Shown: positions 3,582 through 37,351 of the stretch, piece by piece
Numbering within the stretch: position 1 is the first letter of the stretch
Layout of the letters: each line of letters begins with the position of its first letter
Assembly (NCBI GenBank): GCA_025054835.1
Contig: JANWZQ010000128.1
Span: forward strand, 1 to 45,580
DNA length: 45,580 nt
Direction of reading: 5' to 3'
From: Chthonomonadaceae bacterium
GTDB lineage: Bacteria > Armatimonadota > Chthonomonadetes > Chthonomonadales > Chthonomonadaceae
Notes under the pieces: model-generated
Told to the model about the DNA's origin: nothing
Databases searched by the model: none
Seen by the model: the letters and a program-made list of their open reading frames with translations, nothing else
Program-made: the position numbers and the translations under genes

Positions 3582-3610
3582 TTTATACATAAATAAAAAC
3601 CCTCTGTCAA
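3582..3610 (-). promoter_or_regulatory. sigma-70 type promoter for the membrane protein gene
   Basis: On the minus strand the consensus -35 TTGACA (3605-3610) is followed after 17 bases by TATAAA (3582-3587). It lies 34 bases upstream of the ATG at 3548. A second -10-like TATACT occurs just downstream. Confidence 0.65.
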
Positions 3611-3760
3611 TAACAGATATCGATCACAGCAGGAAGGGCCGATGCGGTGTCACGTACTGCGCGCAGGGACTTTCCATCAGACACAGGAGATGCACTGGGG
3701 GCAAACCAGAGGGATGGATCCCCGGCGCTCCCGGAGACTGCCGGTTTGCCGCTGCCGATG

Positions 3761-4867
3761 TCAGGGCGCCTTCAGGGATCTCCGCGCCCTGTTGCGCCAT
3801 CGCCGCCCCTGATCCACCCCGGAGGCAATGGCCCGGTGCCACGCTGTCACTGTGTCGCCAAGCAGATTATGCCCTTCAAAGTAGAGCCACACGAAGTGAT
3901 CACAGCGGCTCAACGCCTCCGCCAGCGTTCGGGCATAGATGTCGGGGTTCATCTCCCTTCCGGTAGGTTCATCCGTGCTATCATAGATGCCCCAGCTGAC
4001 GCTCACAGCAGGCCACTCCGGCCGCAACGATGCGGGAATGAATGGAGTCCGGGCCCTCTCCGAAGCGATGCCCCACTTCTGCCACCGGTAAGCCGTCTGA
4101 AACTCCTCTCCGGACCGCAGGGCGTACAGTTCACCGCCATCGCAGAGCAACACGGTCCCGCGCGCCTGCAACATGCCCGCAAAGAAAGGTCCCCACAGCT
4201 CATTCGCCTCCGGCAGGTGATACACTATCGGTGGGCCATTGTAGGCGGATAACGTGGGGCCGTGCAGGGTCACCACCACGGCCTCCGGAAAACCACGGCG
4301 GATCGCAGCCATGACCTCGGCCCCACGCTCGCGAGCCTGCTCCCGGTACGCATCCAGCGTTCTCGGGTACTTGCAGTCCTCCGGAAAGTTGGCCCAGCTG
4401 CCGAAATACTCCTCATTATCAAAAGCGATCCCGACCAGCCCTGCCTCGCGGCACGCCGCCGCGAACGTTTCCCAGTTAGCGATGGCAACAGACCAGTCGT
4501 CAAACAGATCCGCCGGGCGATCGTTGTAAACCAGCGCGAAGTGGTAACGCAGGCGCCGTGCAGGCATGTCCTTCACCGGTCGCAGTTCTTCCCGCACCGT
4601 CTGTGGCGCCAACCGGGTGCTCGACATCACCCCGAAGGACGATTTGTCCAGGTACAGGAAGAAACCGTCGACTCCAACAAGGTTCCTCTCCAGATGCTCC
4701 AGATGCTCCCGGATCCGTTGCGGCCGTGCCCGTTCGGGCCCCCACTGGTGCAGGATCACCCGCGCCTTCGCCCGGAATGATGCCGCGCGCGATCCATCCG
4801 CGCCCGCGCTCGCCGCGCCGGCCAGCACGGCAGACAGGGCAAGCCATGGAATGTACTGTGTGCTCAT
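3761..4867 (-). CDS. secreted protein, possibly a TIM-barrel glycosidase-like protein
   Basis: The 368-residue product starts with a signal peptide (MSTQYIPWLALSAVLAGAASAGA), so it is exported. I place the start at ATG 4867 because GGAGGGA sits five to six bases upstream; an in-frame GTG directly before it is too close. The mature part contains GFFLYLDKSSFG near residue 70, GLVGIAFDNEEYFGSW near 150 with an acidic DNEE cluster, and DHFVWLYFEGHNLL near 335. Alternating strands ending in acidic residues, and aromatic WLYFEG near the end, resemble glycoside hydrolase TIM barrels, but I cannot assign a family. Residues 92-114 are encoded by a 68-base stretch that recurs in inverted orientation at 5067-5134. 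It has no close downstream partner in its own direction. Confidence 0.78.
   Translation of the reverse strand: MSTQYIPWLALSAVLAGAASAGADGSRAASFRAKARVILHQWGPERARPQRIREHLEHLERNLVGVDGFFLYLDKSSFGVMSSTRLAPQTVREELRPVKDMPARRLRYHFALVYNDRPADLFDDWSVAIANWETFAAACREAGLVGIAFDNEEYFGSWANFPEDCKYPRTLDAYREQARERGAEVMAAIRRGFPEAVVVTLHGPTLSAYNGPPIVYHLPEANELWGPFFAGMLQARGTVLLCDGGELYALRSGEEFQTAYRWQKWGIASERARTPFIPASLRPEWPAVSVSWGIYDSTDEPTGREMNPDIYARTLAEALSRCDHFVWLYFEGHNLLGDTVTAWHRAIASGVDQGRRWRNRARRSLKAP
4528..4595. repeat. left arm of a 68-bp perfect inverted repeat
   Basis: This stretch lies inside the secreted-protein gene (residues 92-114, EELRPVKDMPARRLRYHFAL). Its reverse complement is identical, base for base, to 5067-5134. 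Allowing one mismatch, identity extends five more bases, to 4600 and 5062. The arms are 471 bases apart. Confidence 0.95.
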
Positions 4868-4942
4868 CACTCCCTCCCCCCACAGCAGACAATCGGCCCC
4901 GTCACTCTGATATCACAGACGGAGCCGGAGGATCATGCATAA

Positions 4943-4960
4943 GTGTTACGATTGTTACAC
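4943..4960. promoter_or_regulatory. operator-like near-palindrome
   Basis: GTGTTAC, four bases, GTTACAC: seven-base arms pair with one mismatch. It lies 76 bases upstream of the ATG at 4867. The function is a guess. Confidence 0.3.
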
Positions 4961-5066
4961 TGGAAACAGAGCAGAACAGGAGGATCACGGTGCGAAGCGC
5001 AGAGCGGATCATCGATGACGTGAGGGTTGTCGCGATAACGCGCGGGGAACGACCGGCGCGCACGGC

Positions 5067-5134
5067 GCGGGAAGAACTGCGACCGGTGAAGGACATGCCT
5101 GCACGGCGCCTGCGTTACCACTTCGCGCTGGTTT
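5067..5134 (+). pseudogene. inverted 68-bp copy of an internal piece of the secreted-protein gene
   Basis: Read on the plus strand this encodes the same residues (EELRPVKDMPARRLRYHFAL) as codons 92-114 of the gene at 3761-4867, with no base change. The flanking sequence is unrelated on the 3' side and has no recognisable remainder of the gene. It is a partial duplication, not a second gene. Complete identity implies a recent event, ongoing gene conversion, or an assembly or amplification artefact. Confidence 0.8.
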
Positions 5135-5443
5135 CCACGGTGGAGAAAGCCAGAGAGCACAGAGGTCTGCCCCCCATTCACCCCGGCCCCTACCCCGGTC
5201 GGTCCGGCGTGGCCTGCGGGAGCCACACAGTGCCACTGTGCGGTGCACAGGCAGAAATCAGAGAGCGAGCCCTGCGCGATAACGGCGCATACCATGATGA
5301 GCCCGCGCAGAGTTCACTCCCTGCCTGTTCCAGCTATCACCCTGCCCCGCGTTCGTCTGCAGGCCGGTTCTGTTCGGTAGTTGCCCTGGGTCACACGGCA
5401 CCGTCAGCTGGTTCTGAGCAACCGGGTGCACCGGGTCAGTGCG

Positions 5444-6202
5444 TCATCGCACAGAGATTTTTTTCTCGCCGCCACGCCGCTGAAAGCTTTTTCTCACGAT
5501 TGCGGCAATGCTCTCGGCTCGGGGCAGAAACTTCTCCTGCCACTCATAGCAGTACCTGGCATCACGAAACGGCTCCGCGGGCTCGTGTGCGTACAGATGC
5601 AGGAACAGAAAGTCATACGCAATGTACTCTCTGGAGTATCGAGTGAGATACCTGTTCTCCCATTTATGCAGGAAACGCCGTAACTCGAAAAAGGCAGCAA
5701 AGTTATCGTTCATGGAACGGTGCAGAGCAAGCTCCTCCACCACGAACCGGGCCAGGGCTGTCAGACCGCTGCCTGTGGTTCTGCTACCGAGCGTGCTGAT
5801 CCAGTGCTCGTACTCATACCCGCGAAAGCGCAGAGCACATACCGACTCTGCCTCCGCAACCTCGTTCGGAAACACCACCTGCTGCCGATCCGGGTCCAGC
5901 AACGGGACGAGATGGTAGTATCCCTTACGCTTCGCGATATCCACAGGTCTCTCGTCATCAATGTTCGTTACCGTCAAAGATGCCCCCATGTCCAGCAACC
6001 GCTGGATCACTTCCAGCGGCGCATTCCCATGTACCGCCTGATGCAATGGTGTGTACAGGGCTTCCCCTCCAGGACGCGTGGCGTTGATGAGATCCGGATG
6101 CGCGTAGAGAATGTCAAGAACTTTCTTCCAGTTGTACTCTTTCGCCGCATCCGCAAGCTGATGCCGGACCAGAACTCTGCTACCGGGCCTTCCCTGAACC
6201 AT
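5444..6202 (-). CDS. ankyrin-repeat protein
   Basis: The 252-residue protein begins MVQGRPGSRVLVRHQLADAA. I chose ATG 6202 because GGGAG lies eight bases upstream and upstream frame sequence is AT-rich promoter DNA. Residues 15-45 look like a degenerate ankyrin unit (ADAAKEYNWKKVLDILYAHP). Residues 50-80 match well, with TPLHQAVHGNAPLEVIQRLL and MGASLTVTN, and 82-103 form a third unit (ERPVDIAKRKGYYHLVPLL). Ankyrin units generally bind other proteins. The C-terminal 140 residues are polar and aromatic (RFLHKWENRYLTRYSREYIAYD) and not recognised. No export signal is present, so it is probably cytoplasmic. It stands alone behind its own strong promoter with a palindrome over the -10 box. Confidence 0.82.
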   Translation of the reverse strand: MVQGRPGSRVLVRHQLADAAKEYNWKKVLDILYAHPDLINATRPGGEALYTPLHQAVHGNAPLEVIQRLLDMGASLTVTNIDDERPVDIAKRKGYYHLVPLLDPDRQQVVFPNEVAEAESVCALRFRGYEYEHWISTLGSRTTGSGLTALARFVVEELALHRSMNDNFAAFFELRRFLHKWENRYLTRYSREYIAYDFLFLHLYAHEPAEPFRDARYCYEWQEKFLPRAESIAAIVRKSFQRRGGEKKISVR

Positions 6203-6346
6203 GGACGTAACTCCCTGCGTGCAACAAAACATGCGTAGCCCGCCCTCAGAGCGACTACGCCAGACCACAGGCCACATCCTGCTGCGCCGTTGCAGCACGA
6301 CGTGAAGCAAGAACAGCAGGTAGAAATCCGGATTTCTATTGCTTGT

Positions 6347-6375
6347 ATTGTAGCATACAATTTGTATAATGTCAA
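6347..6375 (-). promoter_or_regulatory. strong promoter of the ankyrin gene with overlapping palindrome
   Basis: On the minus strand TTGACA (6370-6375), 17 bases, TACAAT (6347-6352). The -10 is part of a perfect 6-3-6 inverted repeat (ATTGTA, GCA, TACAAT; 6347-6361), a plausible repressor site. The untranslated leader would be about 138 bases. Confidence 0.65.
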
Positions 6376-6878
6376 ACAAAAAAGTTGCCGGAAGCCCCTG
6401 TGGAGACACAACAGACATCGCCGGGAGACCCTCCGGGCAGGAGGCAGAGACGCGAAGAGGACCGGGGCAACGAGGCAAGCGTTTCTCCTGGTGGCCGGGG
6501 ATACGGACAGCAGGAAGGTTGTGCTGGTAACACGGCCGGGAACTGATCACCGGAGCCGCCACAGCGTCCCGTTATGAGCACTTCCCGTCAGCAGGTGGGC
6601 AGAGCGGAACGTTGCCTCTGCGGAAGAGCCGCAGGCCCTGTACGTGCTCCGGTCGGTCGAAGCTGGCAGGATCAAAACGGGTGAGCGGCGTGTTCCTCGA
6701 ATGGGATTAGACGACTGCAACACCCGGAACCCGACTGCAAGCGCGGGCACCTCCCACTTCTGGACCATGCGGGAGCGCCCCGGGCGACGATTACCCGGGC
6801 AAGAGAGGCCGGGGCATGCGTCGTTCTCATGACGACAGCAACGCCCTGGCCCCCTGTCTTCCAGCATTACCACGATGG
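6376..6878. other. 503-bp region with no recognisable gene
   Basis: Between the ankyrin promoter and the parS array I see no gene, tRNA or conserved RNA. Open frames on both strands lack ribosome sites and protein-like composition. Two GC-rich CCCGGG words near 6780-6802 can pair as a short hairpin. Confidence 0.55.
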
Positions 6879-6894
6879 CGTTTCACGTGAAACG
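6879..6894. other. parS: parS site 1
   Basis: 16-bp perfect palindrome whose 14-bp core GTTTCACGTGAAAC equals the core of the Bacillus subtilis parS consensus TGTTTCACGTGAAACA, the ParB (Spo0J) loading site. Confidence 0.9.
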
Positions 6895-6958
6895 GTTGCG
6901 GCCATTCCCGAGCATCCCCGACTGCGCTGCGGGGCACGCCGGCAACGTACAGAGGCAC

Positions 6959-6974
6959 CGTTTCACGTGAAACG
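6959..6974. other. parS: parS site 2
   Basis: Identical 16-bp palindrome, 80 bases after site 1. It opens the first of two related 58-bp units (6959-7016). Confidence 0.9.
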
Positions 6975-7016
6975 GATCGGGTTCTTCCGACTTCGGAGTT
7001 TTCCGGGATAGGTCGA

Positions 7017-7032
7017 TGTTTCACGTGAAACG
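7017..7032. other. parS: parS site 3
   Basis: Same core, with T instead of C as first flanking base, which is closer to the B. subtilis consensus. It opens the second 58-bp unit (7017-7074); the two 42-base spacers agree at about two thirds of positions. Confidence 0.9.
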
Positions 7033-7074
7033 GATGCGGCGTTTCCGAAACAGGAATTTTCCGTGATAGGGCCG

Positions 7075-7090
7075 CGTTTCACGTGAAACG
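7075..7090. other. parS: parS site 4
   Basis: Same core as the other sites, exactly 58 bases after site 3. Confidence 0.9.
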
Positions 7091-7146
7091 GGTGGGATCC
7101 GGCCCGTGCAGGGCTCCTGATGGTGGGGGCTGTGATACCCCGACAC

Positions 7147-7162
7147 CGTTTCACGTGAAACG
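7147..7162. other. parS: parS site 5
   Basis: Same core, 72 bases after site 4. Here the palindrome extends three further bases on each side (7144-7165), making 22 perfectly symmetric bases. It is the site closest to recA. Confidence 0.9.
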
Positions 7163-36294: not shown

Positions 36295-37149
36295 CTAGTC
36301 CAGGTACCGGGTCCACTGATTGGGCCGGGACTGGCGCAGCGCCTTGGTGTGACCATCAGCGAAGACCGCGTTGAATGTCTCATTATGCCGCTTGGCGACC
36401 CGACCGTACTTGATGCCTCCGATATAGCATCCGGACCCCTGATAGGAGATGCCACGGGTATCCACCTCCACATCCGTGTCGCGCGGGTAGCGGAAGATCG
36501 CCACAGTACCGGAGGGGTTGTCGTTGTGCGGGCAGTTGGGGTTACCGTCAGTATACGCGATGGTGTTGGCTGGCTCTTCCAGCTGTGCCATCGTCGCGCC
36601 GATATCAGCCACAGTGGTGCCGAGCGCGGAAACGAACAGCGCATGGGTCACCATGCCGTGGTAGCAGTTGTTGCCGGTGGGGTCGTTACACCATGCCGGG
36701 TGATCGTTGTAGCTCTCGTTGTACATGAAACCGAGCGCCCACGGGCGGGCCGAGGTACCCAGTGCCGGCACGCCGAAAAGCGCCTCTATGGGCGGGCAAC
36801 CCAGGCGGGTGCTGTCCGCCACGAAGTTGCGTGTCGGGGCGGACGGGCAGGCAAAGAGCTGCGTGTTCCTCACGTAGGGCTGGGTCAGATCCATCCAGGT
36901 GAAGCGAGGGCACTGGCCCCAGGTGTTGGGGAAGAAGTAAGAGCCAACCCAGATTTCGTCGTAGTCCTGTGCATACATCATGCTGGCCGTACCCAGCTGT
37001 CGGGCGTTGCTCAGACAGGACGCCTGTCGGGCCTTTTCCCGGGCCTGTGCGAAGACCGGGAAGAGAATGGCTGCCAGAATAGCGATGATCGCGATGACGA
37101 CAAGCAGCTCGATGAGCGTGAAAGCTGAGAGACGGGATCGATAGCGCAT
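36295..37149 (-). CDS. DUF1559-type prepilin-like protein
   Basis: The 284-residue protein begins [20 protein letters not shown], the type IV prepilin signal (the hydrophobic helix carries Glu at mature position 5). [20 protein letters not shown] and [10 protein letters not shown] are signatures of the Armatimonadota-type DUF1559 family. The end [18 protein letters not shown] is the family's 'H-X9-DG' close. The residue before the mature Phe is Ala where Gly is usual, so cleavage by prepilin peptidase may be less efficient. The start is ATG 37149 with AGGAG upstream; the frame extends to 37173. It would be a surface filament or secretion pseudopilin subunit. Its operon partner at 36080 follows closely. 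Confidence 0.9.
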
Positions 37150-37351
37150 TGACAGATCTCCTCTGCTGCACATGTTGCGCGACTGGGCGCAGTGTTCTGG
37201 TGTGTTTCAGCAATGTGTGCCGGATGCAATAAGGGGCGTCGATCCAGCAGCACGAGAGAGGCGAAGAACCACCTGTCCCTTTAGACAGTTACTACAGTAA
37301 TACGGTTACACCTCCTTGCATTTTTTCCGAAAACTCCAGTGCATGCTTTCC

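Follow-up and report, generated by a model that had tools for sequence, protein, structure and literature searches.

A perfect 68-nt inverted copy of a gene segment beside its own gene start in a Chthonomonadaceae genome: a probable template-switch insertion

Introduction

In E. coli, as reporter work shows, the polymerase can switch to copying the nascent strand where inverted repeats are imperfect (PMC7202029, excerpt; citations so marked refer to a part of the source). Template switches in great apes copy tracts that measure 12 nt in the median and 128 nt at most, and most of these events lengthen the sequence (PMC7954356, excerpt). In a yeast study, spacers of up to 70 nt were taken and switching favored short spacers; homogenized arms and inverted spacers were reported as well (PMC8604942, excerpt). 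Invertons, in turn, have been described with repeats of 10-40 nt (PMC11892184, excerpt).

Here we describe an inverted pair found in a 45,580-nt stretch of DNA from a Chthonomonadaceae bacterium (assembly GCA_025054835.1, contig JANWZQ010000128.1), referred to throughout as the window. Like E. coli quasipalindromes and the short-range four-point switches of great apes, the pair consists of a perfect local inverted copy with little or no homology beyond it; unlike typical template-switch cases, it has a tract of 68-73 nt and a spacer of ~0.47 kb, both of which are longer (PMC7202029, PMC7954356, PMC8604942; excerpts). It likewise resembles the templated insertions at yeast DNA breaks that give rise to inverted duplications by fold-back, although those are mostly ~5-34 bp and belong to a eukaryotic repair setting (PMC11724301, excerpt). 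The locus is similar to invertons and invertible promoters in that inverted repeats flank a short segment holding the 5' end of a gene. Unlike these systems, it has no PF00239 or PF00589 hit on its contig, longer arms, one arm within a conserved coding region and an alternative end that is not coding-like. A literature search for comparable bacterial insertions recognized none of this size and spacing among titles and the opening lines of abstracts.

Results

Geometry of the inverted pair

Comparison of the window with itself identified a perfect inverted run, identical at 68 of 68 positions, between 4528-4595 and 5067-5134. Allowing one mismatch extended the match to 73 nt (4528-4600 versus 5062-5134), and 471 nt (4596-5066) separate the perfect arms. 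An initial annotation of this DNA had described a 68-base perfect inverted duplication with arms 471 bases apart, growing to 73 bases with one mismatch, and each of these figures was reproduced. It had further assigned the repeated segment to codons 92-114, in close agreement with the measured span of arm 1, which begins with the third base of codon 92 and ends with the first of codon 115 when counted from GTG 4870. Based on base composition, the number of such perfect 68-mers expected by chance across the window is ~5e-31; the 68-nt inverted match far exceeds chance. The features of the locus are as follows.

3761-4870, minus strand: source gene, encoding a 369-aa protein (open reading frame, homolog searches, structure model)
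4528-4595, minus strand: arm 1, the source, 68 nt within the gene comprising complete codons 93-114 (self-comparison, homolog alignment, model)
4596-5066, no strand assigned: spacer of 471 nt, holding the gene start and approximately the first 92 codons
5062-5066, plus strand: inner edge, ACGG (4 matching bases) plus one mismatch, partner of 4596-4600
5067-5134, plus strand: arm 2, the copy, with these 68 nt in inverted orientation and surroundings that show no coding signal (self-comparison, codon scores)

Searches of the organism's own genome, a draft of 3,712,152 bases in 202 contigs with a completeness of 96.98, returned matches at the two arms only (E <= 0.001). A mobile element or dispersed repeat was ruled out on this basis, there being no third copy at that threshold. 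When 22-nt words were taken every 4 bases across 4870-5445 and compared with 234 kb of own sequence, each occurred at no more than 2 places, its own included, with up to 4 mismatches allowed. An RNA search of the window yielded 0 Rfam matches at gathering score and 0 tRNAs, and viral contigs contained 0 matches to an exact 32-mer of the copy.

The finding of 0 differences in 68 positions bounds divergence of the arms below ~4.3% (95%), and gene conversion is therefore unnecessary to explain their identity. The initial annotation had also offered a very recent copy as one option, and the bound of only ~4.3% supports this less firmly than was stated.

Edges of the copied tract

At the outer edge, the score of an anchored extension was reached by 73/300 and 132/300 shuffles under two scoring schemes. 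The corresponding extension at the inner edge, 5 bases in length, was reached by 13/300 and 91/300 shuffles. Free alignment of the wider flanks gave scores attained by 74/300 shuffles on the inner side and by 12/300 on the outer side, the latter being borderline, and a protein-level alignment past the inner edge added three residues, of which one was identical and two were unlike. The copied tract thus has fairly sharp edges, without clear homology beyond them. In light of these edge tests, the copy looks like a discrete tract rather than the center of a decayed larger duplication. The ACGG and adjoining mismatch at the inner edge possibly represent microhomology or one later substitution.

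Assignment of source and copy

Arm 1 carries a conserved protein segment, whereas no coding signal surrounds arm 2; the gene arm is therefore the ancestral one and the source, and the intergenic arm is its copy. Codon scores were trained on 14 genes of the window, and the reference windows were drawn from those same training genes. Scores were negative in all six frames across 4871-5061 and 5135-5443; the earlier placement of the copy in a gene-free stretch holds as far as this test reaches. In the copied frame, the 68 nt of arm 2 scored 0.40 per codon, which is what a copied gene piece should give. The codon test is not a strong one, since the other parts of the source gene average just 0.13-0.16 per codon.

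Two start codons, GTG 4870 and ATG 4867, were considered for the source gene, and ATG 4867 is the more likely. The N-terminus of the encoded protein appears signal-like by eye, and the protein is probably secreted. It had no match in Pfam (E <= 0.1), in NCBIfam (threshold 0.01) or among PDB sequences (threshold 1), but relatives of the protein were present in 31 of the 60 genomes searched (E <= 0.001). The best named homolog, L027 (contig 'MAG: Anaerolineae bacterium isolate FR_5'), shares 42% identity across residues 10-337; the alignment is ungapped from residue 10 through 115, with residues 10-35 only weakly alike. Because L027 aligns through arm 1 as assembled, it is this orientation that yields the proper gene. 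We also ran tblastn on 20 loci, consisting of L027 and 19 from relatives. Twelve align with the gene, and in 11 of these the alignment includes some or all of residues 92-115; the remaining one starts at residue 116.

A structure model built from two sequences (mean pLDDT 59, pTM 0.70) suggests, with moderate confidence, a 'barrel-like' alpha/beta fold. Among the best 50 matches of a structure search, the model resembled assorted enzymes with TMq values of 0.34-0.44; judging by their names, these enzymes are barrels. In the model, arm 1 starts inside helix 89-100 and reaches into strand 109-115.

Inverted pairs elsewhere in the genome and in relatives

Local pairs were surveyed using a seed of 14, arm starts within 3 kb and a length minus 4x mismatches of at least 22. 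The sample of the own genome comprised 61 records and 811,956 bases (6,521 N), equal to 22% of the genome, and contained 4 local inverted and 14 direct pairs. Besides the 68-nt pair, the inverted pairs comprised two of 22 nt, one parS-like and the other a perfect palindrome (L097), as well as one of 34 nt that carries a single mismatch (L035); none but the 68-nt pair attained 40 nt in these 812 kb. The window was picked because of its 68-nt repeat, so the rate obtained is an upper figure. The sampled 22% of the genome is without a signature of inverted duplications.

Two genomes of the same family were sampled at 20 records and 400 kb each. One (G002) contained 6 direct pairs and 1 inverted pair, whose 55-nt arms differ by 5 mismatches and lie 2.6 kb apart. 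The other (G008) contained 108 direct and 47 inverted pairs, and the latter all fall in a single repeat array. This array (L129, 15290-17637) is a dense imperfect direct-repeat array with inverted 25-32-nt units. The 34-nt pair of the own genome lies within TTATTCACC-rich repeats at L035 16143-16300, which are perhaps DnaA-box-like or iteron-like, although this is a guess.

parS-like palindromes and other observations

Five exact GTTTCACGTGAAAC palindromes, spaced 80, 58, 58 and 72, occupy window positions 6880-7161 upstream of recA. We take GTTTCACGTGAAAC to be the core of the parS 16-mer. The own genome contains 89 exact GTTTCACGTGAAAC sites, many of them in arrays and distributed over many contigs, compared to 0 for a reversed-pattern control. 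In 40 relatives we found 0-2 sites each, with 11/40 having any. Inspection by eye of 41 distinct site contexts indicated that arrays on several contigs share similar units spaced by 58 nt. The parS 16-mer occurs once in the text of PMC7022226 (excerpt).

Two ParB-family (TIGR00180) hits were observed, L135 (G000:C70:46972-47475) and L136 (G000:C185:50292-50849). The former is ~0.4 kb from a parS-like array whose sites run from C70:47844 onward; our guess is that the latter may be another ParB- or Noc-like protein. The GTTTCACGTGAAAC palindromes appear parS-like by sequence, and in our view they are more striking than the inverted copy and merit a study of their own more than it does. A pilin-like sequence, reminiscent of Armatimonadota, was also noted at window 36295-37173.

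Discussion

The inverted pair had been interpreted initially as a phase-variation design, in which the arms recombine and 4596-5066 flips, such that the secreted protein alternates with a new-start fusion or the gene is turned off. Long perfect arms could recombine, and both arms of this pair are in the same reading frame. When 4596-5066 was flipped in silico, the inverted form stayed open into the gene body, with a GTG preceded six bases upstream by AGGAGG (ribosome-binding-site-like) and followed by 26 residues before the body. This open fused frame with its ribosome-binding-site-like sequence is the best argument for a phase switch. However, the genome as a whole contains three hits to the two recombinase families examined, 1 to PF00239 (C124, adjoining an ATPase-like frame as judged by eye) and 2 to PF00589 (C159 and C196), and all of them are off this 45.6-kb contig. 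The alternative start scored -0.10 per codon over 24 codons, whereas the 5th percentile among 25-codon windows from the training genes was 0.03; this is a weak test given the average of the source gene itself. Inversion would moreover cost this conserved protein ~92 codons in exchange for 26 start residues that are not coding-like. Going by the structure model, the fused product would lose residues 1-92 and with them the N-terminal helix, two strands (37-43 and 69-74), two helices (50-63 and 76-80) and the beginning of helix 89-100. Finally, at 68 nt the arms exceed the inverton range of 10-40 nt (PMC11892184, excerpt). Taken together, these findings speak against the phase-variation design, which we regard as improbable. 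A related idea is an intragenic inverton, accidental or selected, that operates through the 68-nt arms without a dedicated invertase and exchanges the signal-like N-terminus for the 26 residues and ribosome-binding-site-like sequence of the alternative start, to yield exported and non-exported forms of one protein; to this we attach very little weight.

An assembly or library artefact, in which a fold-back chimeric fragment or a misresolved repeat placed an inverted gene piece in the contig, fits with the fragmentation of the draft into 202 contigs, with the lack of a same-genus genome among the 60 relatives and with the finding of no further event this large in the 22% of the genome that was sampled. 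Yet both junctions lead into unique sequence within a contig of 45.6 kb, the reading frame of the gene is unbroken, and a library chimera would presumably need to win the consensus at two junctions. An artefact is therefore unlikely. The pair could also be what is left of a larger inverted duplication or paralog whose middle was kept alike by gene conversion, as might be argued from the five further bases at the inner edge, four of them matching, from the single identical residue that accompanies two unlike ones in the protein alignment there, and from the borderline free alignment of the outer flank. In contrast, the outer edge showed no anchored extension, the free inner alignment was within chance, and a full divergent paralog misfits the geometry, its first codons having to overlap the gene itself. 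We accordingly view a remnant as very unlikely, and a decayed divergent paralog in particular as unlikely by geometry and by flank tests, one of them borderline. A third proposal is that the stem itself is selected, as RNA or DNA, with a leader transcript from beyond 5134 pairing its 5' end with codons 92-114 and leading to cleavage by a double-strand RNase or to a block of translation. A minus-strand transcript of 4520-5140 folds at -364.7 kcal/mol (z -12.4 versus 20 shuffles), an effect caused by the repeat by construction. The long stem proposed earlier is thus favored by folding at the RNA level, provided that both arms share one transcript. The interval 4500-5500, which includes the segment where the initial annotation had placed the gene's promoter, contained 0 sigma-70-like sites, where shuffles give 0.1; this is uninformative as a test here, as promoters of this organism may differ from the sigma-70 model. 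Such a stem would be expected to harm the gene's own mRNA, and we consider a selected stem highly improbable.

We favor instead a single templated inverted insertion made by polymerase template switching, to which we assign a probability of roughly 0.72. Template switching was one of three origins listed in the initial annotation, and it is the one that best fits a perfect local copy without clear homology beyond. In the proposed mechanism, a strand being extended rightwards would leave its template near 5062-5066 and pair with the + strand ~0.5 kb behind, either on its own nascent strand or on the sister strand. Approximately 68-73 nt of the gene would then be copied in reverse, from 4600 down to 4528, after which the strand would return to its original template. 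The product would be an inverted gene fragment, probably functionless, upstream of an intact gene. Mechanism, direction, strand and pairing bases, as well as the lack of insert function, are what we infer from the pair. The 60 relatives, none of the same genus, had no DNA match to 3600-6600 apart from two of 36-40 nt in one genome of the same phylum (G052), both inside the gene; with no empty-site match among these relatives, the insertion as an event is therefore likewise our inference. Both the copied tract and the spacer are long for a template-switch mechanism, which counts against it; the length of the tract falls within reported lengths, and the spacer exceeds those usual in the studies compared.

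Finding a long perfect inverted repeat next to the start of a gene does not by itself constitute evidence of a phase switch. Beyond being a mutation scar with a longer tract and a longer spacer than the published cases compared, the inverted copy matters little, and we view it as useful but ordinary. If the template-switch reading is true, the locus would preserve a single such event as a clean fossil, in a lineage represented here only by a draft genome.
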